A DNA stretch of 64,000 nt from Lactarius indigo (Eukaryota; Basidiomycota; Agaricomycetes; Russulales; Russulaceae). Positions 1,357-58,402 of the stretch are shown piece after piece; the stretch's first letter is position 1, and each line of letters begins with the position of its first letter. Location: contig JAFKAC010000007.1 of assembly GCA_025766275.1 (NCBI GenBank), positions 992,001 to 1,056,000 of the forward strand, given 5' to 3'. The translations under genes were made by a program, and so were the position numbers. The notes under the pieces are model-generated. The model searched no databases. It had not been told where the DNA came from and worked only from the letters and a program-made list of their open reading frames with translations.

Positions 1357-2500
1357 TGTTATGATCCGACGCTTCGGACCTAAGTCACAGTATGTCTCCA
1401 CCCTGCCTTTCCCCTTCTGTACTATACCTTGTTACCAAAGGAGCTACTGTTACTAGTGGCACTGTTTCCTTGATCCGAACTCCTGCTTGCTCCGTTTAGT
1501 CTCTTTGACATTGTGTGGACTTGTGTTCATGTTGTTTGGAACCCTGTCCTATATAAACCTGTACTATAGACCGTAGGAAGCCAGACTTGGCTTCGTTTGC
1601 AATCTAGCAACCTTGCCTCCGTACTTTGGTGTGACCTCGCCTTATCCCTCTCTTCTTGTGCATCCCCTACCTCGGTCCCTAACCAGGACACTTCGAAGTC
1701 TTTGCAGTTGAACTATATCAACGCATTACACCTGTTATACTCTGTGCACTAGCAAGATCAAGTGTAGAGAAGTGTTAGACACTTCGGACGAGGAGTCCTA
1801 CATTACAGAGTAGTGCTGCACCTGGTGCCACACTTTATCACTTGTATTTCATAGCAATAAGACAACAGAGGTCTTCGCTTGATACTTGTGTGATTCAGAA
1901 CCTCTAGAGCCCACGCCCCTGCTAGGGCGTAACACTCTGTGAGTATGTCCTCTTAGTGTGCTGTTCATCAGGCTGTGGTAGAGTTGAGAGGAAAGTACTG
2001 AGGAACTAGACAGTATATTGACAAAGCCAAAGCTAAGGAAATATAGAATATACTAGAGGGTTTATATAGCTGGTACTTAGGGGGGTGCTAGCAAGGCAGC
2101 CAAATGCCAGCAGATGAAAATGCCAGCAGGGCAGCGCCAACAAGGCAATGCCAGCATTACAGAGGAGAGATAGGAGAGAATGGGGAAAAGTGGAGGAAAA
2201 GGTAGGGGTGTTCATGACAAGAGAGAGAGAAGTGACGATTCAAGAAGACCAAGATGGTGTATCTTGGTCTTCACCACATATCCTAAATACAAGTAGAGAC
2301 AGGCTTTGAAGCACTTCCTGTAAGGGATCCAACAAGTCACCTAAGTATTGCAAACCCTAGTACAACTACTACTAGGATCAAGTCATATTATCATACACAT
2401 GTTACTTATCAATTATAACCCACTTGAAGTCCATGACAGATTACTACTCACAATTGCAGCCACAATTGATATGTGAGAGTCCACAGCCCAAACCATAACA
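1357..2500 (+). repeat. long terminal repeat (putative 3' LTR), family TGTTATG...CATAACA
   Basis: The block starts TGTTATGATCC and ends ACCATAACA, giving 7-bp inverted ends. A TATATAAA box lies near 1550. A CTTGGTCTTC inverted repeat near 2246-2275 is shared with the second member of the family at 55192-56995, which has the same ends (TGTTATGCTCC ... ACCATAACA). The right boundary is inferred from that comparison. An alternative right end at about 1970 (GCTGTTCATCA, similar to the end of the solo LTR at 9313-9884) cannot be excluded. The 5' LTR lies outside the window, so no target duplication can be tested. Confidence 0.5.
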
Positions 2501-2525
2501 CCAAGTCCATTCTGTAACACTTTTC

Positions 2526-3790
2526 CTACTCTGCCACTGGTAGTGGTTCAAACCAGTCATCACCTTCAAGGCCTGAATCTGCAAAGCTACTTTTAATCTA
2601 GCATCCAGTCAGCCATCACTCAATTACATAGATTAGATAAACTTACCCAATCTGACAAAATTCCAGCAATCAAATCTGGCCATGGTTTATGAATCACCAG
2701 CTGGTCATCAAGATCCCTTGTGGTTTGTAACTGGATCATAGCAGACTCCTGATATGAGGCTCCATCATAATCATCATTGAGCTTGACAAGGAGAAAGATC
2801 CAGTCATGCCCATTGGTTAGTGCACCATGGAGGACCTTTTTCCTGAGATACATTAGAAATGTAGATCCATCAGTAGTAGAGCAAGCCAGCAGGATCTGCT
2901 TACTGGAGAAGCTTTCCACATGCACACAACCCACATACTGCTTGAGATACATGAACTGAAGGATTAGAAAGCTTGGCCTCTATAACAAAGAAGCTAGATG
3001 ACATAAATGACTTGAGGTTATCAAGGATTGGGGATTTCAGAAAGATAGCTAGAGAAAATAATTAGCTAGGCAGTTGAGGTAAGTTGAGGCAGATTTACTA
3101 GCAGCATGTTGATTTGCCACTACAACAAAATAGTCTACAAATCTAGAAAGAGTCAAGAAACTCAATGGGTTGGTGGTAGTCATGGCTGGAACAACCTGTT
3201 CCATGTTGAGAACCATGTGTTGATCTGGTGGTAGCATTGCAGATGCATGGAAGAAGAATGCCTCAATCCATGCATGAGAACTTGCTTCAGTCTAATGGGG
3301 TACATATAAGAAGCACAAACTTGAAGGCCAACAGATCACTGGCATACCTTCCAAGGAATAACATTTCCCAACAAATGTAAGTGGTGATATAGATTGGCAG
3401 AAGACCAGAGTTCATTCTGCCCAAGGGAAATAGTTGCTGCAATATGTTCCTCAGAATTGGGTTTTAGGTCAATAAAGCCAGTGAATGTGATTTTCAGCTT
3501 GGTCCAGATATTGTCTGTTATACCAGAGTAAGTAAGAGGCTATGGGGAGTGAGCTAATTAAAAGCCATTTCATGACTCAAGTTATACTGTACCTGAGACC
3601 CTTCTACTTGAAGCCCCAGCTTTAACCCCAACAGTGAGAGTGTTGTGTTGATCTGCTGCTCAAGGCCATCTGTGTCTGTCACATTCTCAGACTTCAGGCC
3701 TTCATATGCAATTGCTCTCTTTAGCCTGAGAAGAGAGTTGAAAGCAAGTTGCAATTCCAACCCACTGAGACCAGAGAATTCAGGAGACAT
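2526..3790 (-). CDS. PD-(D/E)XK nuclease-like family protein, copy A
   Basis: A multi-exon minus-strand gene starting MSPEFSGLSGLELQLAF at 3790 and ending in WFEPLPVAE and TAG at 2526-2528. At least five exons can be followed. Conserved landmarks shared with copy B are IDLKPNSEEHIAATISLGQ (about 3340-3510), MLPPDQHMVLNMEQ (about 3200-3237), an Asp in VDYFVVVA, then FFVIEAK (about 2965-3000), SQAVCGLCACGKLL, and GALTNGHDWIFLLVKL. The order Asp, ExK, Gln, then a G-L-TNG-x-W-F strand resembles the PD-(D/E)XK nuclease fold. This is my inference from spacing and motifs; the family is not one I can name. It lies just downstream of an LTR and upstream of a second copy on the same strand. Exact intron borders near the C-terminus are unresolved. 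Confidence 0.5.
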
Positions 3791-4185
3791 TGTGATGAAG
3801 AAGGTGGGGACTAGTGTACTGTTTTTGTAAAGTAAAGCAATTCAAGGCAACTCTGAATCCCCCTATAACTAAATTACTACAAGTCGGCAAAACCCACTTG
3901 GGTTGCTTCATCAACCCCAATCCCACTTTGAAAACCTCACTCCCAAGTGGCCAATGCACCAAGTGCTGACTTATAAATTTGCCTATGAACACTAAACCTG
4001 AAGTGAGAACATGGCACCCCGGCAAAGGTCAAGAGCAGTCAAGAAATTGGTAGAGCTAATTTCATACGTGTCTAACTAACATTTGTAAGATGAAAAAAAC
4101 AGTGTATGACCACATGCCCTCCTGTTGTATTTGCATGCCAGTGACTGTTTGCAGTCAGGAGACCTTGTCACTGCAGTCTGCTGTC
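3791..4185. other. intergenic, no gene seen
   Basis: AT-rich sequence between nuclease-like copy A and the DnaJ remnant. Only short ORFs, no recognisable motif. Confidence 0.4.
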
Positions 4186-4711
4186 CTAGAAATATGTGAG
4201 AACAAGGTCAAATTGAATCAATGCATAGCCAGCGACTATCAATCCAAGAAGACCTACACAAGCGATGCCACTGCTCTTCCCAATCATAGAGAAAAATAGG
4301 AGAGCAGGGCCAGACATGATATGAAACTTAAGGGACTGAATGAGCACATGAGCGAGGAACTCCCGCTGGGTGATGTATTCCTTACAGGTTAAGATAACTA
4401 CCCAAACCTGTGCAGATGTCATGAGCATTCATCACCCACCAACAACTGACCAATCAGGCTCACTGATCATATGCCCAGTGCATGTTGGGTTTCATCAAGG
4501 CTTCATATCCCTTGCGCACAGCGACAAATAATTTGGCACCCTGGGAACCAACACAATCTGGGCGATATTTCCACACAAACACACAAAATGCAGCTTTGAT
4601 TTTAATCTTGTCAGCAGCAGGAGATATCTCAAGTAACTCATAAGTTGAGTGGCATTGAGAGTGATGCTTTGGAGGAGTTGTAGGTAAGGTACAAGAACAT
4701 GACAAGGGCAA
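4186..4711 (-). pseudogene. DnaJ-domain membrane protein remnant
   Basis: The minus-strand frame 4711-4460 reads like a J-domain: YELLEISPAADKIKIKAAF, then WKYRPD where the essential HPD is expected, then LFVAVRKGYEALMKPNMHWAYD. The hallmark His is replaced by Arg (YRPD). The frame stops right after the J-domain at the Gln following AYD. A second frame (4428-4186) continues with REFLAHVLIQSLKFHIMSG and a hydrophobic segment (IACVGLLGLIVAGYALI), compatible with the membrane part of the same protein. Altered HPD plus separated frames suggest a decayed gene. It could still be a spliced gene with a divergent J-domain. Upstream exons were not found. Confidence 0.4.
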
Positions 4712-5799
4712 AGGTAATGCGATAGTGCAAAGGCATCACTTGTGTGCGAAGGTAGGGGTGCACCCAGTGCAACAGCGTACTAGTAATAAATTCTGGAATA
4801 TAGGACCAACCAAGAAGGCTGAATATTGCGGAAGGTATCGTCTACCTAATCACAAAAGGTAAAAACTGGTCAGCATGGGGAACGCAAATCTAAGAGAAAA
4901 GGGTGACACGGGTCAGATTGAGAAAGGAACCTGACATGTGTGATCTCCTTGACCTTGGCCCCAACCTCTATAGCCTTGCACTTGGTACATTAACCTCATG
5001 CCTCCACTTATACACACGTAACCACGTGTCGCCCACATGTATCTCGAGAAGGTACGCTTGCATACGTGCACCCATCTTCCTCTGTGAAAATGTCAATGAA
5101 TGATTTGCCATAGAGCAACCACACCTGCGACCACCCACGTGAAGTCATTCGCATAGTCAAGATGACATGCATCACGTGGGCTCGGCTGGAAGCATTTGGC
5201 ACGTTCTGTGCATGCACAGCCAGAATAGTCATGGACTCGGCCTTTGCCCATGCTCTGGTGATGTTAAAGAGTGCGAGCCTATGTGCAAGCTGGCGTGTAG
5301 TACCAAGCCAATGTCTGTCCGGCCTTACAATGTGTCACAAAAAACTCGTGAAATAACACATTGAGTATCAAATGTGAAGGAGGGCTTGAGGTATGGCAGT
5401 AAGCACAGCTAAGGAAGGGGGGTAGAGACCTGACCCTTTTACTAGACCATCACGGCAAGAGAGAATGGGATGGCACACTCACAAATCACTACTTCCTATG
5501 GGTGGTGTTTGAGTTGTGATCCTGGGGGCAGTGATTAAAGTTTCAACATTGGAGCTGGAGGGTAATGGGTGGCGCAAATTTGAGCAGTATACAAGAGTGG
5601 CACAGCTATAAGAGCAACGTTGTTGGTTTGAACAAGGAGAGGAGAAACAACAGGGTTTCAAGAACAGGTTTCGGAGATTTGGGATGCCTTTTAGGATGAA
5701 CAAAGAGAGACCACACGAGGTGGATCGCTGCCATGAATGCAAACTCTTACACATTCAAAAATAGTTCACATGTTCACAAGACGTTATACAAATCTATAG
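4712..5799. other. intergenic, no gene seen
   Basis: About 1.1 kb with only short scattered ORFs on both strands. I see no domain motif, repeat pair or RNA gene. Confidence 0.4.
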
Positions 5800-6024
5800 T
5801 TATGTACTTAATGGTTCAAACCAGTCACTATTGTCAAGCTCTGCAAAACTATTTTGAACCTGCCAGGCTTCTAGTCAGCTACTGGCAACAATTTAATCAG
5901 ACAAATTAGGACTCACCCAATGTAATAGAATTGCGGCAATAAGATCAGATGATGTCTTATTGATTGTAAGCTCGCCATCAAAGCTCCTGGAGACTTCTAG
6001 TTGAATCTCTGTGGACCACTGGTA
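5800..6024 (-). pseudogene. PD-(D/E)XK-like copy B, 3' exons (split by hAT)
   Basis: Read on the minus strand this piece gives STEIQLEVSRSFDGELTI and DLIAAILLHW, then after an intron WFEPLST and TAA at 5800-5802. It aligns residue for residue with the C-terminal part of copy A (AMIQLQTTRDLDDQLVIH, DLIAGILSDW, WFEPLPVAE). It begins exactly at the CACTGGTA target duplication (6017-6024) of the hAT element. Its 5' part is found 14.7 kb away at 20730-21795. Joined across one copy of the duplication the frame is continuous (EASYQ then W-STEIQLE), so the two pieces were one gene. Confidence 0.75.
6017..6024. repeat. 8-bp target-site duplication, left (CACTGGTA)
   Basis: Identical to 20730-20737, directly outside the terminal inverted repeats of the hAT element. 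Eight bp is the hAT hallmark. Confidence 0.9.
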
Positions 6025-6046
6025 TAGTGATGTCAAAGTTTGGTTC
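6025..6046 (+). repeat. hAT left terminal inverted repeat
   Basis: TAGTGATGTCAAAGTTTGGT plus two bases. Matches the complement of 20708-20729 at 21 of 22 positions (A/T difference at position 6). Confidence 0.9.
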
Positions 6047-6675
6047 AGTCTGGTTCTTTACCCTTTGTGGCTGAACTCCGGACCGGACCGAGGGTCTGGT
6101 TTTGGATATTGCCGAACCCCAAGCCAGACCCCAGTTCAGGGTTCACAATGGTCCAGTTCCAGTTCGGGGAGGCTGTGAACCCCGAACTGGACCTGAAGGG
6201 GATTTTGCAGTCTGGTTCTGGTTCAGGAGGTCGAACCAAATGCTAAATCAAGGTTTGGGACAACGACGCTGCTTCCCTTTCCTGATTCGCACTTCTTGCA
6301 AATTCTCGTACCAATGTTTTTTTTTTAAAAAAAAATCAATTTGTAGTCCAGAGCCCATACTCTTACCCATGTCTGCCGGGTTTAGGGACACAGTATTCTA
6401 GGATTGTCAAGGCCGTGAACAGATGTGCCACACTAGGTAATGCACAAGGTGGACCGCATGGCTCAATAGTGATAGGTGTTGCAAGGGGTCACACATACCC
6501 CAGCTTGCAGTGCTTCAATCGGCCCTGGAACTTGAAGAGAAATAAGGCAAGTTGGCAACTTGGCGCCGATATATTCAGAGGAGACAAGTGGTGGAATGCA
6601 AAACGAACGACATGCTGCACGCTAGTATGCTATGGACTAAATACTGTATTTCTTCTATAGTCGTATTTTCTAATC

Positions 6676-9600
6676 TCACTGTAATGACTCCAAGATTGAG
6701 TCAACATCGATTGGTTCAATCTCAGTGTCTCCAACATAGTCAACGTCTAATGACTGTACACAGGTGTTGAAGTGTTCTGCTGCCTGTGTGATGGCAGAGA
6801 TATGCCTGTTCCTGTAAGCGCTTTTGAGAATTTGAAGCCCCTTGAAGATTTCTGGGGTCAGCAAATTTCTTTGTGAGCAGCCGGTTATTTCCCCACTGCT
6901 AAATGCACGTTCCAATGGTGTAGCTGATCCCTGGATTGCAAGGTAATCCCAGGCGATCCTCTTCAGTGTGGGGTATTTCACATCGCTTTGGGTCTTTGTT
7001 TCCATATGCATTCATTAAAAGTATGCTGGACACAAATAAAAGAACTCACCCCCCACCACGAAACGACATCAGCCACACTCTCAACCCCAGAATGTAGGTA
7101 TTGCTTGAGTTCATTGCAAGGATTGCCATCCGCCTTCTCTTTTTGTTGGAACAGCTTGACAGCCTCCAGAAGGTACGAACCACCATAGTGGGCCGATGGC
7201 TTAGGCACAGGTGGCACAATGGTGTCTTCAGTACGTGTTGTAGTTTCTGGAGTAATATAATATTTGTCGAACTAATGAGTTGATATCGGTATAAGAACAA
7301 TTGAATATTAAAAAAGATCACGTACCACTTCCTCAAGCTCCCTCATAGCAATGGCATATTGTTCATGATCCCATCGGACTCGGAAATAAAGATCCTTGAG
7401 ATTTGGATCAAGAACTGGTGTAGTCAGCTCAAAGTTAAGAACGAGTACAAGTGTGAGAACTCACCAACACATATGAAATAAGTAATGCGTGAGCCTTCGA
7501 CATGAGTATACCACTTGCAAAGATTCTTGAGTCCTTCGTTCAGCGCGTCCTTCAGCTCACAGTATTGAATGTGATCAGCCATAGTCTCCCAGTTTTTGAT
7601 GAGGAACTCGAAAGTTGAGAGAACATGCCAGACAGTCAGGGTGTGCTCTTTCAAGAACGTCTGCTGAGCATTGGACAGCTCCTGGTAGAGTATGAACAAT
7701 AGAGAGAAGGTGGGAATTGGAAGAAAAAAAAACACACCCTTATTGAAGATTTGATATTTACAAGCCATTCCCAGTCTTTCTGTGTCAGCTGAAAGTCAGT
7801 GTAGCTCCACTGCCCAGTCAAGTTTGGGACTTGGTCGTTTGCATCTGCGAGCAGAACAAATTGTTCAATTCCCTGTAGGAGATAAGTGTCAGTGATTGAG
7901 ATGATGAAAATGCGACATGCACCAATCGTAACTTGAGGAACCGGTCGAGGAAGCTGTAGAGGGACCCCCAGCAAGTTCGGATCCACATGATAAGCTCCAA
8001 CAGTGCAGCCCCAACTTGAATGCAGGCCTCCCTGAAGTAGGCTCTGGCCTGTGGCGATTTACAAATCTGCAGTGCAACACACACACATTAGTGCAAATGC
8101 AAGTCCAGTGTGGAAGGAACTTACCTGTTTGACCAAGGCGACTGCTTTTCTGAGTGAACTACCTGAGTCGAAGACCTCCTCGTCCGAGTTGTTATCAGGG
8201 TCCTCCAGGCCCGGCCTGGTAAAAGCGTTCCTACGATTCGTGTCAGAGCCTAAACCCGGCGCGACCTTCTGTATAAAGTGCTTCACTGTGAGGTGGAGTG
8301 AGTGTTCCATGCACCTGAGAGTTCAATTAGAATGTGTTTGGGAATACCTGGATGTAGCAGGACTTACAACATATTGTGTTCTACGGCGCTCCACTCATCT
8401 TCTGTAGCGGCAAGCTTGTTCTGGAGCACGCGAATAGTTGTCTGATTGACAGCTGCCCCATCACTGGTAAACCAGCCGATCTATGTGGGTTCTGAGTGAG
8501 TTACAAGAAGAGAGAGACAACAAAAGTGTTACCTTTCCATGAAGCCCATAGCTGTCTAGCGTACGAGCCAGGATGTTGGCAATATTCTTACCCGTGTGCC
8601 TACCCTTAATTTCCTCAAATATGAGCTGTTCACACTTGAGGCGCCATATGTGCGGTTGATCTGCTAATGCATCTATATAGTGGGCCGTGACAGATAGATA
8701 GGGGTCTCCAGGTTCCGAGGTCCATGCGTTGAAAGTGAACGATATCTTGCCAGGGGCTCTCTTCATGTTCTCATGCATTCTTCCCTGTGCAATGTGAACA
8801 CGTCTAAGTACCTCAGTGTGAATTGTGTTGCAGGAGGGTATGTCCTTCTCCAAAAGAGAAGGCTGACAGAACTTGAGGAGGCAGCAAAAAGCCCCACACT
8901 CAACCAACAAGAATGCCTGATGGCGGAAGAAGATCAAATTATAAAGTATTATAATGTGCGTATTCACTCACCTCGTCTTCACAGACAATAAGCTCAATGA
9001 TGTGGTCGAGTAAGCCTGCGGTTGTAAATGGAGGGACCTTCGGTTCGCGAGTGACCATGCCATCTAAACTTGTCTGGGTGAGACTACACGAAATGTGAAC
9101 TGATTGTCAAGTGAATATGGGATAGCGGTGATGTACCTGCTGCTGCGTGAACCGGCAGGAAGGCGAGAGAGGGCACGGGGATGTGGCTCGATGCCAAGTA
9201 CTTTACAGCGTTTGTGATACAAGTTTACATGATGCCTAGAAAGGATCAGAAGATCGCACAAATAGAGAGTAGTAGATTACCTTGCAATATGCATCTGCAA
9301 AGAGCTTGTGCTTGTTGATAAGTGACCCTTACGCACTTAGCGGCTCATACGGACTGGACTTGCAGCATGGACTGCTTTAGATTAGATATACAGGACTTGT
9401 AGATTAGATACTGTTTGATCTGTACAATCTGGACTTACCACTGTGTCATCTATGACATCACTGTACTTCTATGACATCATACATCCAGACTCTGCGTTGT
9501 ATAACGCCTTTGTACTTTCCTTTGTTCCATACTTAGCTTTATCTTTATTATGATGTCACTATGATATCATTTGCTTCTGGACTCTCCTTATTCTTTCCTC

Positions 9601-10461
9601 CCTTGTTCTCAGAACGTCCACTCCTTTGTCCGTTTGTAGAACAATACTTCCTTGTACTGCGTGACCTAGTGTTACATCCCTTGTACAGTGTCACTACCAG
9701 AAAGTGTATAAGTAGAGTACCATGTACGCTCCTGGTCCACATCAGTTCTCACTGCTTGTGTGCCAGACAATCTCTTGCTTTACTTGCCTGACAACTCCCT
9801 GTTGCTGCTTCAAGCACTCTCTGCATATCTCACCACAGTCACCTTTGCCACTGTGAGTATGCTCTCTATTTGTGCTGTTCATCAGTGCTTCCTGTCAATA
9901 TGCACAAGTTCTGGTTGATCAAGAGATCCTTCCTTCAAATAACTTCAGTGAATGAAGGGAAAACAGGAAAATAAAATATACTCACTCGCAGATCATGCAC
10001 AAGTGTGCATCGGAGATCTTGCCTGAAACTGGGTGCTTATACTCCTTTTTCCGTTTAAAGATAAGGAGGATATCTGCCATAGGGTTTTGTCTCAGTTTGA
10101 AGTTCAGGGCCTGAATAATCGATGAGATTATTTACAGAGATGTGAGTAGGCGACATACCTCATGGTCCACATCTGCCATCACCCTGATAGACCCATAGCC
10201 ACTGGTAGATGTAAGATTACCCACATCTTGTGACTCCATGGAAGCGTCATTGTCAGGCACATTGGACACAAGGTCATTCACATCATGTGTTGGCACCACG
10301 GAACTGTCATCGTCGTCGCCGTCGTCACCATCGTATGATGAGGCATTGTCGATATTGACACTGATCTTGCATGCGATGCGCTGATCTCCAGTAGATGTAC
10401 TTGAGGCCTTGCGTTTGGCAGCCGGTTTAACACCTCTTGTCACTGCAGAACCCGAAGACAC
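6676..10461 (-). CDS. hAT-family transposase
   Basis: A multi-exon gene read leftwards. From the N-terminus: an acidic linker (SSYDGDDGDDDDSS, about 10300), then FKRKKEYKHPVSGKISDAHL and CMIC followed across an intron by HIAR and HHVNLYHKRC. This is a BED-like zinc finger split by the intron that holds the 9313-9884 LTR. Next comes the catalytic region (FNAWTSEPGDPYLSVTAHYI near 8700, HIQYCELKDALNEG and EDWEWLV-type segments at 7.5-7.8 kb). Last is the C-terminal dimerisation domain (YPTLKRIAWDYLAIQGSATP, LERAFSSGEIT, about 6880-6970), ending at 6676. These are classic hAT landmarks. A further upstream frame to about 10914 would include an in-frame TGA at 10509-10511, possibly a CGA-to-TGA lesion, so activity is doubtful. 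Exon borders are only partly resolved. Confidence 0.8.
9308..9889. mobile_element. solo LTR (9313-9884) with 5-bp target duplication
   Basis: The element starts TGTTGATAAGTGACCC and ends TGTTCATCA (TG...CA), 572 bp. It is flanked by GTGCT at 9308-9312 and 9885-9889. A TATA-like GTATAAGTAGAG lies near 9706. It sits inside an intron of the hAT transposase, between the two halves of the zinc-finger coding sequence, and has no internal coding region. An alternative pair of flanking repeats (GTTGAT at 9314 and 9914) fits less well because it removes the TG...CA ends. Confidence 0.65.
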
Positions 10462-11667
10462 CTCAGCTGCCTCAAGAGCTCGCCGGGATGGGCAATGAGC
10501 ACGTCCTGATCACCTAGCAACTCTAGCAGAACCACCCAAGCTCTGAGAAGGAAATGGGATCGACTCATCTCCATTGAATGTCCAAGTCATCTCCAAGGCG
10601 TCCTTCAACGATCCATCGGGTTGGATGGCGTGCCCCAGATCTTCCATGTTCGAGGACATTGTCTAAAAGATGAGCTGGTTGTCATAGGGACATACCTTGC
10701 CTTTATCCTTTTTTTGCCCCCTCTGTACGTTAACGTCGCAGAGGTGAAGAAGTGCATTTGAGGTGTTTTGAATTGACCTAGAGGACCGTGGAGGTGGTGA
10801 GGTAGCAAGAAAATAACTCGTGATGAGAGGACAACCTGTTGGCACAACACGTGACTGGGCTTCCCAGATCTGCGTTGACTCATGTTTCATCTTTTTTCCC
10901 ATCACTTGCTTCAATTTTTAACAAGCTTTCTTTCCTTCCCCCACCATCATCTCACGTCTAGTCGCCTCTTCGCCTTGCCAGATGCCCAACTACTCCGATG
11001 TCAATGGCTGTCCTTGACTACCTACACCATAGCCGACAATGCCAAGGTCGAAACATTGTTAAGGGTCGTGCATCAAAACACTCCCTGTCTTGCGGGCTGT
11101 CGTCAAGGGTCTTGCCTTCAGGCTTTCATCAAGGATCTCACCTCAACATTTCCTCCATCCCCTGTCCTGCGGGGCCTTGTCATTGTATATACTTTTGGTG
11201 GCCAATGACCAGCCTGTTTGTCGGGAAAAGGTGCACTGCATTAAATCATTCCTCGTCTCGTGGGCTGTCGTCAAGGGGTCCTACCTTTAGGCTGTCGTCA
11301 AGGATCTTGCCCCAGAACATTCCCTCCATCCCCTGTCCTGCAGGCCCTTGTCGTTGTATATACCTTCAGCGGCTGATGACCAGCCTGTTTGTCTGAAAAA
11401 GGTGCACCACAATCTTAGTTTCTCTCTTGTACTATCTATGCACAGGGTTGGCCATTACCACTCCTGTTGTTCCCTTCGTTTACATGTGTAGGCACTTCCA
11501 TCCCCCCTCCAGCAGCGGGGTGTTACTCATCATGGCGGCAACCCTCTTTTTGGTGTTGGCACGTTCTTGGGCTTCATCACTGTCAGGCTCATTTTTATGT
11601 AAGTCCCCTGAGATGATACAAGTGTTGGTACTGTCATCAGTGTCAGCTTGGCTTGAAGCTTGTAAGT
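10462..11667. other. transposase 5' region and decayed repeats
   Basis: The minus strand 10914-10605 has frames (from MKHESTQIWEAQS) that may be 5' exons of the transposase, followed by EDLGHAIQPDGSLKDALEMT. This leads into the transposase frame through a TGA at 10509-10511. The plus strand 10895-11110 is related to the minus strand of about 19030-19240, forming an inverted pair of degraded copies. An imperfect tandem duplication of about 170 bp lies at about 11075-11415. A minus-strand ORF of 81 codons (11480-11725) overlaps the end of the next gene. None can be assigned a function. Confidence 0.4.
11075..11415. repeat. imperfect tandem duplication, unit about 170 bp
   Basis: GGGCTGTCGTCAAGG occurs at 11094 and 11262. 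GACCAGCCTGTTTG occurs at 11207 and 11378. Between these anchors the two units share the order CATCCCCTGTCCTGC, TTGT.GTTGTATATAC and a GAAAAAGGTGCA-type segment. Confidence 0.7.
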
Positions 11668-12356
11668 TCACTTTCCAATTGGCCTGGATGTTGGACCCCC
11701 CGATACTAGTAGGGTGGCATTGCATCGCTTGAGGCCTTTAGTGGCATTCCTGGATACGGCAGTAAGTGAGAAGTCCAAGTATTCAGTCTCATCAGCCGAG
11801 CATTCAGTCTCATCATCACCGCCCAGAGACTCGCCCAGACAGCTTGCAACTCTGCTATCCCCGAGGTTGCCCATCATGTCCGTGGCAGGCCTAGCTTCAC
11901 AGGTCACTATATGCTACTAGGTCAATTGATCGCACTTACTCTGTGTCAGGTTTGGTTTCGGCAGTATCCAAGACCGAGTATTTGGTCTCATCGTCTGGGT
12001 ATTCAGTCTCATCAGCCGAGAATTTGGTCTCATCATCACTGCCCAGAGACCCGCCCGGACAGCTTGCAACTCTGCTGTCCCCAAAGTTGCCCATCATGTC
12101 CACAGCAGGCCTAGCTTCACAGGTTATTATATGTTACTGGGTCAATTGATCGCACTTACTCTGTGTCAGGTTCCGTTTCGCCAGTATCCAAGACCCTGAA
12201 AGACTTCATGTACATTGAAACACTACTTAGGCTGGGGAGTTGAATTTCCACCACTGATCTTGTTGCTGGCTTGGGACCCCCCTCAGTCATTGTGATCTGC
12301 GCGATGGCCACCTGACGCCTTGCATTGGCATGTGATAGATGTATCCCAACAGGCAT
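11668..12356 (-). CDS. acidic repeat protein of unknown function carried by the hAT
   Basis: The proposed CDS is complement(11668-11890, 11940-12110, 12160-12356), three exons, 196 aa. Introns are 49 bp each, starting GTAAGTGCG and ending AAGCTAG. The start codon is MPVGIHLSHANAR at 12356. Exon 2 (57 codons) and the first part of exon 3 are near copies (PAVDMMGNFGDSRVASC and PATDMMGNLGDSRVASC), each containing DETExxSADETEY-type acidic repeats. The duplicated unit is 220 bp (exon plus intron). The exon is a multiple of three, so duplication keeps the frame. I recognise no domain. It lies inside the hAT on the same strand as the transposase. A copia element is inserted 14 bp upstream of the ATG, so its native promoter is now about 5.2 kb away. 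Confidence 0.45.
11890..12159 (-). repeat. 220-bp tandem duplication of an exon plus intron
   Basis: GTCAATTGATCGCACTTACT occurs at 11921 and 12141, and CTAGCTTCAC at 11891 and 12111, an exact 220-bp offset. Units are about 90% identical. Donor and acceptor sites are duplicated with the exon. Confidence 0.85.
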
Positions 12357-12365
12357 GTTGGAGAC

Positions 12366-12370
12366 TCGGG
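12366..12370. repeat. copia target duplication, left (TCGGG)
   Basis: TCGGG immediately before the LTR at 12371. The same five bases follow the other LTR at 17615-17619. Confidence 0.85.
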
Positions 12371-12769
12371 TGTAAGTTATGGATAGTTTCGGGAGCTCGG
12401 AAGCAGCGCGCGAGGCAAACTAGAAAGAACGGATAATCTCAGTATCGCGCGTGTACGAGCAATGTCTATATTGTATTTACCTAGAAAGAACGGATAATCT
12501 TTCTAGGCGTAAGTGTGCTGAAAGTAAACAAGTGGTAAAGTAAGCTCACCTCAGTATCGCGTGTGTATGAGCGATGTCTGAGGTGCTAGGTACGAGGGAA
12601 CGAAAGTACTTGTACTACGGAGTCAAAAGATGTAATACGTATGGCTGTCATGCTAACGGATATTCAGGGGGACAGGCGATGGACAGATGTATTGTGCTAG
12701 AGTAAGGTTTTAAAGTACGCGTGACGGAAGCTAATGTTCATCACGCATTATCTGCGCTCGATCTCAACA
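12371..12769 (-). repeat. copia 3' LTR
   Basis: 399 bp, TGTAAGTTATGG ... CGATCTCAACA on the plus strand. Contains an internal repeated motif (CTAGAAAGAACGGATAATCT twice, TCAGTATCGCG twice). Same length as the other LTR. Confidence 0.95.
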
Positions 12770-12780
12770 CTCCCCCTCAC
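12770..12780 (-). promoter_or_regulatory. copia polypurine tract
   Basis: The minus strand reads GTGAGGGGGAG directly before the 3' LTR, in the expected plus-strand primer position. Confidence 0.7.
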
Positions 12781-15700
12781 TTCGCGCGGAGGCCAAGTCC
12801 TGCGGCGAAGTGCTTCACCTTGGGAGATGGGAGCGCCTTCGTGAGCACATCGGCCACCATGTCTTCAGTCAGGCAGTAGATGAGCCGGACAACGCCCTGT
12901 TTGACTACCCAACGAATAAAATGGTACCGCACGTCGATGTGCTTCGTGCGGGCGTGGTACTGGTGGTCGTGGGCGAGCGCGATGGCCGACTGATTGTCGC
13001 ACAGCATCGTCGTCGCATCCTTGAAGGGACCGAACACGTCGGAGAGGAGGCTGCGCATCCAGAGCGCCTCCTTCAATCTGTGCATCGCCACGACGTACTC
13101 ACTCTCGGTGGTGGACAGGGAGACAATCTCCTGTCGCTTTGAGGACCATGAGACGGTGCCGCCATCAATGAGAAATGCGTAACTGGAGATGGCACATCGG
13201 TCTTCTGCCATGCTGCCATCTGCATCGGTATAGCCCGTGAGGGCGCGTTGCGTCTTGCCGTACGAGAGCCACAGGTTGCGGGTGCCAGCCAGATAGTGAA
13301 AGATTCACTTTACGGCTTCCCAATGCGCAGGCCCTGGGTTTGTCGAGAAGCGTGCCACGGTGGACACGGCGAATGAGATGTCGGGGCGCATGGCGAGTGC
13401 AGCCCAGTTGAGGGCGCCGACGGCCTCGCAATAGGGGACGTCGCGCATGACCGCGAATTCCGCCACGTTCGCAGGGGCCTGCTCGGATGTGAGTTGGGCT
13501 TGCACGTCCATTGGCGTAGAGAGGGGCTTGAGGTTGGTGAGGTGGAAACAGTTGAGAATGGCGTCAATGTACGCGTGCTGGGAGAGGTGGATGGTGCTGG
13601 CCGCGCGGTTGCGCTTCACCTTGATGCCAAGCATCCAGTGAAGCTCACCCAAGTCAGTGACTTCAACGTGCTTGGCGAGGCTGCGCTTGAAGTCCTCGAC
13701 GAGGGGTTGACCGCTCGCGGCGATGGTGCAGTCGTCGACGTGCACGGCGATGACTATGGCCTTGTGCGTCTTCGCGTTGGTTTTGTGGTAGACGGCCTGG
13801 TCGACGGAACATTGGGTGAAGCCGAGGGTGGTGAGGATGTGGGTGAAAGTCTGGTACCAGCGGCGCCTGGCCTGCTTCAAGCCGTACAAGGCCTTCTGCA
13901 GTCGCAGGACTTGTGTCCCTGAGGCCAGTGCCGTGTACCCAGGTGGTTGTCGCATATACAGCACCTCGTTGTCGCGTAGTACACCATTGAGGTATGCACC
14001 CTTGATGTCAACTTGGTGCAGGACTAGGGTGAGGCGATTGGCCATCGCAATGATCGCGCGTGAGGACGCGAGCTTCGCGACTGGCGCGAATGTGTTGTCA
14101 TAGTCCACGCTGTCGATTTGCAAAAAACCTTGGGCAACGAGCCGGGCTTTGTAGCGGGCGATGTTCCCTGCGGCGTCCTTCTTTGCCTTGAAGACCCACT
14201 TCGAGCCGATAACGTTGGCTCCAGGTGGGGGCTCCTCCAGGTGCCAGGTGCCAGCGGCGTTGAGCGTGGCGAGCTCCTTGTCAATGGCCTTCTCCCAGAG
14301 AAGCCAGTCTGGACGACGCTTCGCCTTGGCCAGCGTTCTTGGCTCTAGGGCCTCCGCCTCTGCAGTCTCGGCGGCGAGGACATGCTCGAGCCAGCCTGAG
14401 TCCTCGAGGCGTCGAGAGCTGTGTCAACTGCCCACACTCCCCCTGTCTCCTCAGTGTCTCCATCGAATCTGCCCGGGAGCTGAAGTCCGGCAGGGATGAT
14501 AGGGTCTGAGCGGTGCGCTGACGACATGCCTACGCCCTTGAGTAGGTGGCGTAGCGTGCGTGAGGGCTGTTGAGTCCTGGTTGGCTGTGGCATTCTCCAC
14601 GGGTCGGTCTTGCTGTCGCCTTCTGTGCTCTCGGATGTTGAGGTCTCGGATAGTGGTGTGAGGGGTGATAGGGGTGATGATGGGCTCGGCGCGTGCTGTG
14701 CGAGGGTCTTGATGGGTGGTAGTGAAGGTTGGGAGGAAGGGATGGAAGAAGTTGAGGGGGTCGATGGCGCGGCATGCTGCTCGCCCTCCATACCTGGGAT
14801 CAATATTCCCTCCCCCTCGAGCTGCTGTGCCATGCTAAAGTGCACGTTGCGCTCCGTCGTAACGCCCCGCATGGCCGGGAAATACACACAATGCGCGTGT
14901 GACTCGGTTTCAAAGCTGAGCCAACGGCCTTCGCGTGCACGTGCGTCAAACTTGGTGCCTGTGGGGTTATGCACCCACATGTGTGCGCCCCACTGCTGCA
15001 AGCCCGAGAGGTCGGGTGCACGTCCAAACAGCGCCTGGAAAGGCGTCAGGCCATTGAGGGCCTGCGTCGCCGTGCGGTTTTTCAGCCAGGTGGCATGCCG
15101 CAGCACTTCGCCCCATAAGAACTTGGGGAGGCCGCTTGAATGGGTGAACGTGCAGAGGCGTTCCGTGATGGTGCGGTTCAGCCGTTTGGCGACGCCGTTG
15201 AGCTGGGGGGTGTCGTGGACAGTGAGACAGCGGGCGGTGCCAGCCTCCTTGAGGTGCTGGTCGAACGCCTCGCTTAGGTATTCGCCGCCGCAGTCCGAGC
15301 GAAGGACTTTGATGCCGGTGCAGTGCTGCTGCGTCATGGCCCACTTCTCGAATGCCTTGTATGCGCCGAGAGCCTCTGCTTTCGTGCGCAGGAGGTACGT
15401 GACAGTGTACCTGGTGGTGTCGTCTGTGAAGGTGATGAAGTACCGGCACCCGCACTTGCTAGCGACGGGCGACGGTCCCCACACGTCCATGTGGACTTCC
15501 TCGCCGAAGCGTTGGGCCTGTGGGCCGACGCACATCTTTGGGACGGGCTTGCGGGTCGCGTGCGCAAATATGCAGGCGTCGCACTCCACCTCTTGCGAGT
15601 TGGGATTGAGCTTGATCCCAGTGACGAGGTTTTTCTCGACAAGAGCTCGGGCGCTTGCTGGCACGATGTGGCCCATCCGTCGATGCAACTCCATGACCGT

Positions 15701-17161
15701 GATGGTCTTGACGGAGTGCGCAGATTCAGCGGCATGTGCGACGCGGTACAGGCTGCGGGAGGACTGGGGTATGCGGGCGACGCGTCCACTTTCTGGGGCG
15801 AACAGGTCGAGGTGGCCGCCGCCAATCGAGACGCGGTAGCCGATCTTGTCCAACGCGCTGAGTGATACCAGAGTGTATCCCACAGCCGGCGTGTGGAGAA
15901 CGTTGGTGAGGGTGAGGGTGGATGGGGTGCTGCCGTTCGGTACATGCAGTGTGAGGGTGCCGGTTCCGATGGCGGGGAACTGCTGCTGGTTCACGGCATT
16001 GAGGGTGATGGGTGGGTCGAGGACTGTGTAAGTGGTGAAGTCGGATTTGTAGGGGGTGATATGTTGTGTCGTGCCCGAGTCATATAACTCAATGCGCTCG
16101 CCCTGGTCATTGCTGGCTGGCATGGTAGCTGCTGCCATGGTGTCCCCATGCGTTCCCACTGGCTCCTCAAGAGCGAGGTCCACGGCCCAGCACTCGTCGA
16201 CATCTTCGTTGTTGGCCGCGACAGCATTCGCCAACCCGACAGGCTTCGTCTCCACCTTGTGCTCTTTGCCTGCCTTTTCCTCCTTCTTGGGAGATCGGCA
16301 CTCCCGCACCCAATGGCCTGCCTTGCCGCAGTTGTGACAGTTGCCCTTGCGGCGATGTCGTCTATTCTCGGAGCCCATGGCTGCGAGAGCTTCGTCTCCG
16401 GCGGCCTGAGACCTGGCCCCAGACTTGGTGGGTTGAGACTTGGCCCGGTAGTTCTTTATTCGGTCCGCCTCCTCGCATATGTGAGTGATGAGATCGTCAG
16501 TGTCTATGGTGGTGAGATGGTTGTAGAGGGCGGCGCCGGAGAGAAGGCCCGATGCGAAGCGTGCGAGCTCTTCTGGGATTCCCCGAAGGACCGTGCGCTG
16601 GTAATCCCTGTGCGAGATTATCACCCCGGCGGCCAAAAGCTCTTCGCGTTTGAAATGCAGGCCTGTGAGGAAAGCGCGAACATCGCCTCCCTTGGGACAG
16701 CGCATTTTGTAGAATGCCGTTTCGAGGTCATTCTGCACGTAGATGCTCTTGGCCGTGAACTCTTGGGCGATTCGCTTCCATCGCAGGTGAGCGGTGGGGG
16801 AAGGGCCCATGCGTACAGCCGTCGTGTCGTGGAGCCGTTGTGAGAGGAGGTATCGCGCGACCTTGTCGTCGTGCTCCCACTTCACTTTTTCTGCTTTCTC
16901 TTCCTCTGTAGGGGCCATGGGGTCTTTGGGCAGCGGGCAAGGGTTGGTGCCGTCGAAGAAGCCCCATTGGTTGGTTATGTCCATCGCCTCGCTGAAGCGC
17001 ATAAGAAATACAGCCCAGTTTGAGCCATCAGTTTCCAGGTGAGGGATGTTTGCAGGGAGCAGTTCTACAGTGGAAGGAGGTTGGGAAGGGGGCGGCATGG
17101 CCGACGAAGACGCAGACGCAGATCCAGATGCAAGGGTTCCAGTCATACTGATTTCAGACAA
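12777..17161 (-). pseudogene. copia gag-pol polyprotein with three lesions
   Basis: Starts MSEISMTGTLASGSASASS at 17161. A Gag region is followed by a CHNCGKAGHWVREC zinc knuckle (about 16300-16345), protease motif YDSGTTQHI (about 16065), and integrase HHCC finger (LHRRMGH ... CDACIFAHA). Integrase core motifs are MDVWGPSP and RSDCGGEY, but the third acidic residue is lost: NGVAKRLN has Lys (codon at 15185-15187) where NGVAERxN is expected. The first frame ends at 14345. RT and RNase H continue in another frame, so a frameshift lies near 14400. RT has VHVDD at its catalytic site (about 13740). The frame is then cut by TGA at 13305-13307 (between EAVK and IFHYLAGT). RNase H follows (TESEYVVAMHRLKEA, DNQSAIALAHD) to 12777. 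Confidence 0.9.
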
Positions 17162-17203
17162 TAGCGAGGTGGAGATGGTGTGTGGTATTAGCGACGCTCG
17201 GCA

Positions 17204-17213
17204 GGGCCCATAA
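17204..17213 (-). promoter_or_regulatory. copia primer-binding site, initiator tRNA-Met anticodon region
   Basis: Two bp inside the 5' LTR the minus strand reads TTATGGGCCC, the exact complement of GGGCCCAUAA. That matches the anticodon stem-loop of eukaryotic initiator tRNA-Met. Priming from an internal (half-molecule) tRNA site is known for Drosophila copia. Here it is inferred from the match and position. Confidence 0.6.
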
Positions 17214-17215
17214 TT

Positions 17216-17614
17216 TGTAAGTTATGGATAGTTTCGGGAGCTCAGAAGCAGCATGCGAGGCGAACTAGAAAGAACGGATAATCTCAGTATCGTGCGTGTA
17301 CGAGCGATGTCTATATTGTATTTACCTAGAAAGAACGGATAATCTTTCTAGGCGTAAGCATGCTGAAAGTAAACGAGTGGTAAAGTAAGCTCACCTCAGT
17401 ATCGCGCGTGTACAAGCGATGTCTGAGGTGCTAGGTACGAGGGAACGAAAGTACTTGTACTACGGAGTCAAAAGATGTAATACGTATGGCTGTTATGCTA
17501 ACGGATATTCAGGGGGACAGGCGACGGACAGATGTATTGTGCTAGAGTAAGGTTTTAAAGTACGCGTGATGGAAGCTAATGTTCATCGCACATTATCTGC
17601 GCTCGATCTCAACA
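17216..17614 (-). repeat. copia 5' LTR
   Basis: 399 bp, 95.7% identical to 12371-12769. The 17 differences are all transitions. Followed by the TCGGG duplication at 17615-17619. Confidence 0.95.
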
Positions 17615-17619
17615 TCGGG

Positions 17620-19668
17620 GAGGATGGAAGAGGCGTGGCGTAGGGTAATAAATAAATAAAGGTGTGTGTCTCTATCTTTGATTGTTCGATTTTCTTATGA
17701 CACCACTTGCAATCCTGTGTGTTGCACAATGAAGTCGGAAGCACTGATGAACATGAATTGGTGGGGTGGTGCTAATGCCCGAGAAAGGCGGATGTTGGAC
17801 AGGCGACTGAAACAACTGAGTGGTTTCAAGGCTACTACAGTACATAAGAGTCTAATGTATGTCACACGGACAGTGCGACACTTGGACAGGATTGTAAGTG
17901 ACAACATAACAAACCAAATATATAGTGTTGTAATAAACCGAGTGTATGGCGTCTGTGTATCCCTGGGGTCCAAAAATCATGTAAAAGCTGTTTCGTCGAT
18001 GGGTAGAAACAGACTGACCTTTGTTTTTTTACCCCCACACCACACCTCTTCCATTCTCTTTGAGACAGGGTCAATCTTGTCTGGGAGATGAACCGGATAC
18101 AGGCCCATATGTGCTCATGCATGCCTCCACGGTGACTGCACCTGAGCCTGGGTGCGCGTAGACTAGCGACTCGAGCACTCTGACCATTACCTCAGGAATG
18201 GGATTGTGTTGGGCAGGAGCATGGCAGAGTGGATCCATGTAGTGCTACCCATCCTCAGGCTCTTCCATGTGGTGTCGATCTTCCTCGACCGCCGGAATCC
18301 CACAGTAGAGTAATGATGTCGATGAGATTACTAAGTCCCGTAGTTGAGAGCGTGCGTAAGAAGCCTTGAGGGGGATGGTGCGTTGCCCAGTAAAGGGCTG
18401 CAGGCAGGCACGCATGAGTGAAAACACATACCTAGGGCCCTAGGGCTGCAGCAGCAGACAGCCCCCCTGTCGTGACTCCTATTCTGATTATTAGTTAGGG
18501 TCGTGCTTTCGAGCTCAAATGTATTTTATTAAACACAAGTTCGACCCTCATATACCTCAAGCAACAGTAAGTAGGGGTGGTGTAGTCGAAAATGCCAAGT
18601 CGAGATTGGGCTGGTAGATATCACAAGTAGGGGAAAGTAAGTAAGTAAGGAGGGGCTTTAGCGACAGAGTCCATGAGTCGGAAAGGTGAGGATAACACGC
18701 GTAAGTGGGTCCCAAGGTTGGTGGTCTTGAATGAAGCCGGAACCAGGAAGGCCAGTGAAATGGGGTAAGTAGACGAGACATGTTGGTCTGAAACGAACGT
18801 GAGAAAGAACGATATTGGCCAAAGAGGCAGTACAAGTTGGTTTTGACAAGGCATGCAGCGCACTGGAGGAAGTGAAAAGTAAGAGATTTGAAGGGTTGAA
18901 GGGAGGTTTGAGGCATACCTTTGCTTGAGACAAAGAGCGTGACACAAGGCCTGTCAGCCAAGGGTATACGCGTTGACAATGTTGCACGGTTGTGTGAAAG
19001 TTAGGTAAAGAAAGGCTCGCAACACAGGGAACAGAAGGGAGTATGTTTTGAAGTGAGACCCTTGGCAATGTTTTGAGCGAGTTGCCTTTGGGTATGGTGT
19101 GGGTGGATGAGGGCCGTCGGAGTCGGAGTGGTTGAACATTGGGAAAGGGCAAAGGAGCGACTGGGGTTGAGACAAGATGGTGGGGGAAAGAAAGAAAGAA
19201 AGTTGGAGAACGAAGCGAGTGATGGGCTTTTGATAAAAGGCGAAGACCATTGATCTTCCTTCCAAGGATGGAGAGCCAAGTCACGTGTCAGGCTGATGAC
19301 TCTGAAACGACCGAAAGCACTTACAAGGGCCACAGCACCCTCACACTGCACAGGCTGCCAACGTCTGCAGTTGTTGGTGCTGTCGCCCAGGAGGCAAAAT
19401 TAAAACAAAAGAATGAATCTATGATTAAAGAGAATGAGGACATACCGAGTGGAAGCTGTTCCGTGTGAAAACTGCTCTATGCAAAGCCCGAGGGCTAACT
19501 GGTTGGCCGTCGATCTTGCCGTCGATGATGATGTCTTGATCATTTGGCCGAAGGCCTGCAGTGTTGGCGAACTGCGTGAAAGGTGCCTTGAATCAGTCTT
19601 CAGGTAGCAGGAGCAATTGCATTGAACGGCCCGTTGTAGGGCAAGACAAAGGGCTTATGGTGGTGACT
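17620..19668. other. hAT interior right of copia, no confident gene
   Basis: This is the former upstream flank of the 11668-12356 gene (17620-18100), then minus-strand frames of up to 208 codons (18658-19284) rich in S, P, L and H with no recognisable domain. The part around 19030-19240 (minus) resembles 10895-11110 (plus), including a MFNHSDSDGP/MPNYSDVNG-like start. I treat these as decayed or non-coding copies. A 141-codon plus-strand ORF (17666-18091) has no motif. Confidence 0.35.
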
Positions 19669-20398
19669 GTGGTTGTAACGTTACAGTAGGAACATTCAGC
19701 TCGGCGTGAGCAAGTCTGGTCTTTCTATGTCAATGAGCGAGAGTTCAGCCGGCAATGGCAAGGTTTAAGTGGTTAACAAGAATCTCAGAGTATGACACAA
19801 TACTCAAGATGTGAGTGGAGTTCAAGGGGTTCAAGAGGTTCGACGGTTCAGCAGAGAGTTACCCCAAGGGAATGGGAAAACAATGTATACTGTGATGGTA
19901 AAGAAGTCGAGTCTAAGGATACAAGCTACTTAGGGCCACGACTTATATAGAAAAAGGTTTGTTTGTGTGGAACAAACAAATGGCGCAATCCGCAGCAAGT
20001 GCGGGAAGCAACACAGCAATCCGCAGCAAGCGTGTGAAGAAAGTACAGCAATCCGCAGCAGGCACAGGAAAAGGAAGAAGATGTGCACAGCTATCCACAG
20101 TAAGTGTGAGAAGAAGTAAGGATATAAAAGGCAAGTGAGACACGTCTCAAAGTTAAAAATAGAAATGAGACACCTGCCATAAAAGGGTGCATTTAGCCCA
20201 AGTATAGTAGTAATAAAGACTTATAAGGACAATGAGTGTCTCATTGTCTCACTTTGCACTAGGAGAGAATCTTAAGGCTCCTAGTGCACAGCAAGTCCGA
20301 AAAAGGGAAAGCCAAGAAAGGAAAGACTTTCCCGCGAACGCAAGTGTAAGTAAGAAATTAAAGTAAAGTTGAAAACAAGTCCAGTCCGTAACAGTGGT
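19669..20398 (-). mobile_element. solo LTR (19674-20393) with 5-bp target duplication
   Basis: The element reads TGTAACGTTACAG ... CCAGTCCGTAACA, 720 bp, flanked by GTGGT at 19669-19673 and 20394-20398. The minus strand has a TATATAAG box (plus-strand position about 19940), suggesting minus orientation. Short repeats CAATCCGCAGCA occur three times near 19985-20060. There is no coding region. Nested inside the hAT. Confidence 0.8.
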
Positions 20399-20707
20399 GG
20401 GGTGCCAGGTATCTGTGAGAGTGCACCGTTAAATGGCAAGTTATGTGAGGTGACATTTGCATCAAGTTTGTAATTGCTCACCTAAACTTGCTGCCTAGAC
20501 CAAGTTCCAGCATGTACATCTCAGCTAGATGCGAGAGTTAAGAATACCTGAGTCCAAACGCGTTCAGAAGCGTTCACCTACGGTTCAGCAGAATCTGAGT
20601 CTTGCTGAACCGCGAACGAAACCGTGGTCCAGTCCAGGACAGTCGGCCGAACCCGAACCTAAGATTGGGGTCTGGTTCAGTTAGGTTCAGGTCCAAACCA
20701 AAGTTCA

Positions 20708-20729
20708 GAACCAAACTTTGACAACACTA
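20708..20729 (-). repeat. hAT right terminal inverted repeat
   Basis: Complement reads TAGTGTTGTCAAAGTTTGGT plus two bases, 21/22 matches to the left end. The first 8 bases also match the MITE at 43475. Confidence 0.9.
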
Positions 20730-20737
20730 CACTGGTA
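20730..20737. repeat. 8-bp target-site duplication, right (CACTGGTA)
   Basis: Identical to 6017-6024. Part of the coding sequence of the split gene. Confidence 0.9.
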
Positions 20738-21795
20738 TGAGGCCTCATTGTAGTCGTCACTGAGCTTGACGATGATGAAAATCCAGTTGTGGCCATTGGT
20801 TAGAGCACCACGAATAACCTTTTTCCTGAGACAAAGTAGCACATCAAAAATACAAACCTTGAAGCCAGAATGATTTTACTTACTGGAGCAGTTTTCCACA
20901 GGCAAAAATCTCACCGACAGCTTGGTAAGTATGGGCTTCAAGGCGAACCGGGAGAGAAGAAGCCTTGGCCTCAATCACAAAGAAACTTGATGCCAAGCGT
21001 ATCTTGATGGCCGCGGCACTAAATTCAGGAAAGAGCGAGGATTTCAGAAAAACAGCTAGAGGAAATAATGAGCTAACAATTTAGCTGAGTCAAGGCAGAC
21101 TTACCAGACCGCGTCGATCTGCTAAAATGGCAGTATAATCTGCAACCCCCGAAAGAGCTAATGAACTTGATGGGCCGACAGGTGTGGCTGGAATAGCTTG
21201 TTCCATGTTGAGAACCAAGTGTTGATCTTGCGGTAGCATGGCAGACACTCGGAAGAAGAAGGCATTGATCCGAGCACGGGAGTCTGCTTCAGTCTGATGT
21301 TGTATTAAAAGCGTGAAGGACAACAGCCATGGGTGACAGGTTTACATACCACACGAGGAACAATACTCTCTAACAAGTGTAAGTGGCGATATAGGGTGTC
21401 GGAAGACCAAAGTTGATCTGCTCCAAGGGAAGTGGTTTCTGCAATTCGTCCCTTAGAGTTGGGCCTCAGATCCATTAGGCAAGTAGGCGTGATGGCCAAG
21501 TCGATTAAATTCCCTCTGGACATCCTGGAGGAACCGAGAGACTGTGGGAAGTGAGTTAGTGGAAAGGGTGTAACTTAAGTTCGAGTCATACCTGAGGCAC
21601 TTTGCGCTTCTTGGGGACAACACCCTCCATTTCCTCTCCAGCAGGTTCGGACTTGGTCTTGCTGAAGAGCGAAGCAAATGAAGGGAGCTTTGATTTACCC
21701 TTATTGGATGGCATGATGGGGAATGGTGCTAGTGGCGGTGATGGTAGTGGCGGGCACAATGGTGGATGAGTCTGAATGTTGATAGCGTTGTTCAA
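20730..21795 (-). pseudogene. PD-(D/E)XK-like copy B, 5' exons (split by hAT)
   Basis: Read leftwards: start MNNAINIQTHPPL at 21795, or more plausibly MPSNKGKSKLPSFASLFSKT at 21714, with a basic VPKKRK stretch that could be a nuclear localisation signal. Further exons hold LMDLRPNSKGRIAETTSLGA (about 21425-21480), AMLPQDQHLVLNMEQ (about 21200-21240), ADYTAILADRRG, FFVIEAKASSLPV (about 20950-20990), TYQAVGEIFACGKLL and GALTNGHNWIFIIVKL, ending EASYQ at the CACTGGTA duplication (20730-20737). The Asp, E-A-K and Gln expected for a PD-(D/E)XK fold are conserved with copy A. The gene is interrupted here by the hAT; its last exons are at 5800-6024. Confidence 0.65.
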
Positions 21796-31388: not shown

Positions 31389-31623
31389 AAGTTGGGAACG
31401 ACAAGAGCGAGGCGACGAGGCAGGACCAAGAAACGTGTCAAATTCGCGGCAAACCCGGGCCGTCAGCGCTTTAACGCCAGCGTCTAGTGTCTACTATCAT
31501 TTTTGGTAAAGGTTACACACCCTCCCACTACAGTCCTCACAATTCGTCCTCAACTCGTTTCTTATCAGATTGTTCCCGTAAATTCAACTGAAGTAATGGT
31601 TATTCAGAGACACTCACCCCCAA

Positions 31624-33982: not shown

Positions 33983-34001
33983 CAAGGTTTCCGCCGTCAG
34001 G

Positions 34002-58388: not shown

Positions 58389-58402
58389 CCAACCCGCTTA
58401 CT
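58389..58402. repeat. LINE target-site duplication, right
   Basis: CCAACCCGCTTACT, identical to 54456-54469. Confidence 0.9.

Follow-up and report, generated by a model that had tools for sequence, protein, structure and literature searches.

The stretch analysed here, 64,000 nt of the Lactarius indigo genome (contig JAFKAC010000007.1, positions 992,001 to 1,056,000), is called the window hereafter. It contains a DNA transposon of the hAT superfamily at 6025–20729, which measures 14,705 bp including later insertions. This element is almost certainly a dead copy of an autonomous hAT of about 8.15 kb, which inserted into a host gene, was later hit by other insertions and decayed mainly at CpG sites. 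A preliminary description of the same DNA had called it a 14.7-kb cargo-bearing transposon. As worded, this did not hold: some 6.55 kb of the total was added after the hAT insertion, and nothing indicated that all 14.7 kb had ever moved together.

The two inverted ends of the window element agree at 21 of 22 positions (22 of 22 in a relative, L041), and the 8-bp target-site duplication, CACTGGTA, is perfect on both sides; the same eight letters occur at five further places in the window. A search of the window with the end pattern gave two matches, both of them the ends of the element, and none in 100 shuffles. Both outermost 250-bp stretches are rich in GGTTC/GAACC, with 8 copies on the left and 7 on the right versus a shuffle mean of about 0.5, and none of 2000 shuffles reached these counts. 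Ends, duplication and subterminal repeats had all been reported in the preliminary description, and each was re-derived here. Its coordinates, 6017–20737, are correct for the span that includes the duplications, but not for the element proper. Positions of all features are given in Table 1.

Table 1. Features of the hAT element and of the interrupted gene, in window coordinates.
Feature	Position	Strand	Basis
Left 8-bp target-site duplication, CACTGGTA	6017–6024		sequence read
Right 8-bp target-site duplication, CACTGGTA	20730–20737		sequence read
Left terminal inverted repeat, 22 bp	6025–6046	+	end comparison, pattern search
Right terminal inverted repeat, 22 bp	20708–20729	-	end comparison, pattern search
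Left subterminal region, 8 GGTTC/GAACC	6025–6274		counted in outer 250 bp
Right subterminal region, 7 GGTTC/GAACC	20480–20729		counted in outer 250 bp
hAT transposase gene, 14 exons	6676–10659	-	modelled on intact copy L043
Transposase exons 1–5	10159–10659, 9986–10110, 9281–9932 (interrupted), 9137–9235, 8972–9083	-	comparison with L043
Transposase exons 6–10	8533–8916, 8368–8480, 8125–8314, 7923–8066, 7738–7872	-	comparison with L043
Transposase exons 11–14	7465–7681, 7326–7414, 7050–7271, 6676–6987	-	comparison with L043
TG...CA insertion, solo-LTR type, 572 bp	9313–9884		5-bp duplication GTGCT; inside transposase exon 3
Gene 2, small acidic protein	11480–12356	-	comparative model
Ty1/copia LTR retrotransposon, 5,244 bp	12371–17614	-	5-bp duplication TCGGG; LTRs 12371–12769, 17216–17614
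TG...CA insertion, probably solo LTR, 720 bp	19674–20393		5-bp duplication GTGGT
Host gene, upstream part	20738–21484	-	67.6% alike to window 2749–3482
Host gene, downstream part (STEIQLEVSRSFDGELTIN...)	5869–6016	-	similar to the continuation of the neighbouring copy below 2754

Nested insertions had been proposed, and three were found, each with a 5-bp duplication and each missing from two relatives, L041 and L042. Base-by-base comparison with these relatives revealed nothing large missing from the window copy, and its three extra stretches are exactly the three insertions. The largest is a copia element with gag, integrase and reverse transcriptase domains, whose long terminal repeats (LTRs) are 95.7% alike; it lies 14 bp upstream of the start codon of a second gene, gene 2, discussed below. 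The 572-bp insertion, which starts with TG and ends with CA, recurs as many dispersed copies (67 matches from 40 scored out of 1,558 candidates), and is therefore most simply a solo LTR. The 720-bp insertion has the same form and probably belongs to the same class. Once the inserts and the duplicated bases are subtracted, the core measures 14,705 − 577 − 5,249 − 725 = 8,154 bp, in agreement with the 8.15 kb first estimated. Five relatives of 8,184–8,223 bp align end to end with the same two ends; among them, L041 (8,184 bp) is matched over its full length at 97% by four other copies (8,188, 8,188, 8,204 and 8,223 bp).

The family was then sought in the whole assembly (90.3 Mb, 291 contigs), a check suggested in the preliminary description. 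As queries, the outer 301-bp stretches had 33 and 36 matches; with at most two mismatches allowed, the end pattern had 79, versus 19 for a reversed control. Paired by position, the ends formed three groups according to their likeness to the window element, namely subfamilies A (91–96%), B (85–89%) and C (75–78%), with a few weaker matches besides. The count of duplications covers 19 A and B elements, the window element among them, of which the two ends were read; outside this count were C110, for which one end was found, and C218 and C278, which were paired by position and of which not both ends were fetched. The 8-bp duplication is perfect in 17 of the 19. Common flanking sequence indicates that C233 and C239 probably represent one insertion present in two haplotypes, as do C289 and C57; counted by independent sites, perfect duplications are present at 15 of 17. 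The left flank of C110 is also common to the copy on C24. The subfamily C copies on C68 and C226 each have an 8/8 duplication.

Empty sites were found for two sister copies. Both flanks of the C79 copy are adjacent on C68 (98.8% and 95.3% alike), with an overlap of 7 bp, the left alignment ending one base early. The C1 copy sits in repeated sequence (31 matches), and its flanks are adjacent in three other members of this repeat (98.2–99.2%), with an overlap of exactly 8 bp. Together, these sites point to cut-and-paste movement.

Nested repeats give the interior of the window element the look of unrelated fragments, and its two ends might in principle come from two independent short elements, located 14.7 kb from each other by chance, a possibility raised in the preliminary description itself. 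The identical duplications that flank the outer ends, the empty sites of sister copies and, above all, the colinear full-length relatives with the same two ends refute this, and its probability is negligible. Another reading takes the family for a giant, Starship-like hAT that mobilises 14–74 kb of varied DNA, the large copies being alternative loads. Large copies do exist, of 14.7, 15.5, 15.7, 16.9, 17.9 (two), 33.3, 73.0 and 74.3 kb, and perfect outer duplications flank those of 14.7, 15.7, 16.9, 17.9 (two), 33.3 and 73.0 kb, the 15.5 and 74.3-kb copies being outside this test. However, the large copies are, where examined, nested copies of one core. The 73.0-kb copy (C24:1358837–1431851, 73,015 bp) holds a colinear 8.18-kb element, the pieces of which (1–1505, 2026–2399, 2395–4269, 4264–6705 and 6698–8184, with about 0.5 kb missing) occur in order and are split by 41,642, 718, 7,230 and 15,750 bp of other DNA, seen only as gaps between core matches. 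Similarly, the cores of two subfamily C copies (16,660 and 16,400 bp) measure about 8.8 kb and are 98.6% alike, whereas each copy holds a different LTR-flanked element at a different place, with LTRs 100% and 99.8% alike. No interior beyond the core was seen in common between large copies at different sites, the interiors of the 15.5-, 15.7-, 16.9-, 17.9-, 33.3- and 74.3-kb copies being known from core matches alone, and varied cargo that had moved as a unit was not observed: the window element and the two subfamily C copies were enlarged by later LTR-type insertions. We regard the giant cargo carrier as very improbable. Two of the large copies, both of subfamily B, C278:88721–162972 (74.3 kb) and C135:399324–432632 (33.3 kb), are perhaps nested likewise. 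The near-identical LTRs in the two subfamily C copies (L063–L066) also suggest that LTR elements were probably active in this genome recently.

What appears as a giant cargo element is thus an 8-kb hAT serving as a landing site, copies from 8.2 to 73 kb having one colinear core. This calls for caution with automated claims of giant transposons.

The mobilising gene found in the element is a hAT transposase, in accordance with the preliminary description. In L043, an intact copy of subfamily B, its 14-exon reading has 12 GT-AG introns and one GC-AG intron and gives 911 amino acids with no internal stop. The window gene is disrupted twice, through a stop at 10512 and through the exon 3 insertion; two premature stops are present in L041, and none in L042 over the 908 codons compared. 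The hAT dimerisation domain PF05699 was detected in the L043 protein (E 8e-10) and in window frame 6676–7011 of the minus strand (E 1.3e-5). Alignment with the Hermes transposase covers L043 residues 784–868, a C-terminal stretch with SERxFS (E 1.6e-5). The motifs FDAWT, SDGAAVN, CMEH and SERAFS are present by eye, and may hold the RNase-H-like D, D and E and the CxxH residues; the FDAWT stretch aligns to Hermes only at a negative score. When A and B were compared, a block with coding-type change appeared in the transposase region, where the ratio of nonsynonymous to synonymous change (dN/dS) against B is 0.15 for L042, 0.18 for L041 and 0.20 for the window copy. A protein search returned 9 proteins at E 0.001 among 7,999 candidates scored. 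Those named all come from mushroom-forming fungi: Pleurotus djamor (40%), Hohenbuehelia grisea (42%), Hermanssonia centrifuga (35%), Favolaschia claudopus (38%) and, with partial coverage, Lactarius quietus (55%, over 27% of the query) and Piloderma croceum (32%, over 42% of the query). Three further relatives complete the nine, the best at 73%.

Decay of the window copy is mainly CpG-to-TpG change. It has 284 private substitutions, of which 271 are transitions and 187 change CpG to TpG or CpA; the corresponding numbers are 157, 155 and 112 for L041, and 99, 93 and 37 for L042. Deamination of methylated CpG is the likely cause.

The preliminary description held that the element splits a host gene, and both flanks indeed match adjoining parts of a neighbouring copy of this gene. 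The right-flank peptide, ...EASYQ, ends in ASYQ like the neighbouring copy, and the left-flank peptide, STEIQLE..., corresponds to SAMIQLQ... in that copy (score 88, the best of 2000 shuffles reaching 44); the two pieces were aligned separately, and the shuffle test applies to the left one only. Since stop codons occur in the translated frames of both the interrupted gene and its neighbour, and the exon structure was not worked out, we do not claim that a working gene was destroyed.

Several observations weigh against the interpretation of the window element as a dead, once autonomous hAT inserted at this site. The exon structure of the transposase is a comparative model, partly set by hand and made without transcripts, and the match to a BED finger in the L043 protein (residues 207–238, E 0.18) is below the cut-off. 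Among the window copy, L041 and L042, all of subfamily A, dN/dS of the transposase is 0.41–0.52, so that constraint has been weak since those copies parted. The duplication at C113 is only 7/8, and the element at C13:664347–672534 has none. Finally, when each flank was searched separately in the genome, neither an empty nor a filled second allele of the insertion site in the window was found: besides the window, the left flank gave more distant partial matches (81–82% for part of the flank), and the right flank gave matches of 67% over 747 bases and of 76–83% over short stretches. This very insertion is therefore deduced from its duplication and from the host-gene copy.

A dead autonomous hAT nevertheless remains our preferred interpretation, and its history may be pictured as follows. 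The element entered the host gene by cut and paste, generating the 8-bp target duplication, to judge from that duplication, from the duplications and empty sites of sister copies and from the two host-gene halves. The copia retrotransposon and the two TG...CA insertions, most likely solo LTRs, arrived later, as their 5-bp duplications and the relatives without them show. Following hAT biochemistry, the transposase would bind the 22-bp ends, excise the element and reinsert it, and its putative BED finger, a sub-threshold match, probably also binds the GGTTC-rich subterminal repeats.

At least one non-transposase gene had been announced in the preliminary description, and gene 2 answers to it. 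It lies upstream of the transposase gene on the same strand, and was modelled as 259 amino acids in subfamily A (three exons, with a duplicated stretch) and 207 amino acids in B (two exons). In the window copy it is frame-shifted between open reading frames 11668–11913 and 11480–11737. The tandem duplication in A, of about 220 bp (L041 5222–5644, window 11779–12195), comprises a coding stretch and splice sites and is not in the B protein. Between A and B, dN/dS of gene 2 over 207 codons is 0.44 (L042) and 0.51 (L041); it is 0.63 between L041 and L042. Gene 2 showed no likeness to the transposase (score 43, shuffle mean 41.8, with 183 of 500 shuffles as high).

Comparison among copies, as had been proposed, revealed a gene 2 match in every one of the 21 paired A and B elements, and all 54 matches in the genome at E 0.01, from 52 scored candidates, lay inside these elements. 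Because every paired A and B element matches and nothing does elsewhere in the genome, gene 2 looks like a resident accessory gene of these subfamilies rather than captured cargo; the term "cargo-bearing" is right as to an extra gene being present and misleading as to its capture. Gene 2 was not found in the two subfamily C copies examined. The conserved blocks that bracket the gene in B, where 972 bp separate them, lie 275 bp from each other in C68, and in C226 the best hit of a translated search had an E value of 0.99. These comparisons suggest that gene 2 was gained by A/B or lost by C. The C copies have spread, as they occupy two sites with different duplications, and since they did so with no gene 2 found in them, the gene is probably not strictly needed in cis. 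That it was not found in subfamily C, as expected of a gain by capture, and that its constraint is weaker than that of the transposase (0.44–0.51 versus 0.15–0.18), would also fit captured host cargo without a role in transposition, the source gene having been lost or having diverged. However, the gene is kept in every paired A and B element, matches nothing outside elements in the genome, has no Pfam family at the curated cut-off, and found no match at E 0.001 among 852 candidates from 5.8 billion proteins; capture is conceivable but doubtful.

As to what a resident gene 2 does, our best guess, a weak one, is that its product assists transposition or escape from silencing as a DNA-binding or regulatory protein. 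It may have been gained once by the A/B ancestor and either help the hAT transposase or shield the element from CpG methylation, as proposed for the TET/JBP genes of other basidiomycete transposons, a scenario by analogy to which we give a low probability. With this orphan gene, the role of an accessory gene in a hAT family can be put to the test, and what it does is the main question of wider interest. If the accessory role were true, two-component hATs would form a new functional class.

In the right half of the core, A and B align poorly, and four frames (L041 6757–7509 and 7223–7621, L043 7755–8066 and 8113–8547) had no Pfam match; no third gene was called for these reasons. The core also contains an internal inverted pair (window 10898–11086 and 19036–19226, about 70–74% alike) that also matches A and B copies. 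Elsewhere in the window, two neighbouring frames of the putative cyclase family (PF04199) lie on the minus strand at 31624–34015, adjoined by glycosyl hydrolase family 31 frames at 29912–31490. A minus-strand frame at 57168–58397 has an RNase H domain (PF00075, E 3e-6) and is perhaps a retroelement remnant. An Rfam search of the window gave no match at the gathering score.

With the hAT superfamily (Ac, Tam3, Hermes, the fungal Restless), the element shares the 8-bp duplication, short inverted ends, the C-terminal dimerisation domain and the match to Hermes. Out of six hAT features considered, the first three of these were found and none was contradicted. The family differs in its core of 8.2–9.1 kb, its 14 exons and the extra resident gene of A and B. 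Terminal inverted repeats of hATs are given as 5–27 bp (figure quoted from PMC12506042), a range that includes the 22-bp ends of the window element, while a typical hAT is about 5 kb and the largest cited is 7,144 bp (PMC6710886), a length that the core exceeds.

Literature searches on fungal hATs with cargo or a second open reading frame yielded precedents, and nothing among the entries listed was recognised as this family. Size and extra gene, presented as unusual in the preliminary description, are not unprecedented: in Pseudocercospora fijiensis, a hAT of about 9.5 kb carries histone H3 (PMC6710886). That element is likewise fungal, similar in size, with an 8-bp duplication, 20-bp ends, an extra gene and C-to-T decay, which is ascribed there to repeat-induced point mutation (RIP). 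Its extra gene derives from an intronless host histone transcript that was captured, whereas gene 2 is an orphan of two or three exons with no host source found. Puccinia hAT7 is, similarly, a basidiomycete hAT with a second, non-transposase gene, TET/JBP, but it has 7-bp duplications and the gene is a dioxygenase, in contrast to the 8-bp duplications here and a gene 2 without Pfam family at cut-off (PMC12730594). The 14-kb ToxhAT/ToxTA, compared by description only, is also a fungal DNA transposon that carries another gene and was once called a hAT; it has been reassigned to Tc1/mariner, with a TA duplication (PMC12506042). The large two-gene fungal hAT is a kind of element already described, and the present family is a well-documented and fairly ordinary example.

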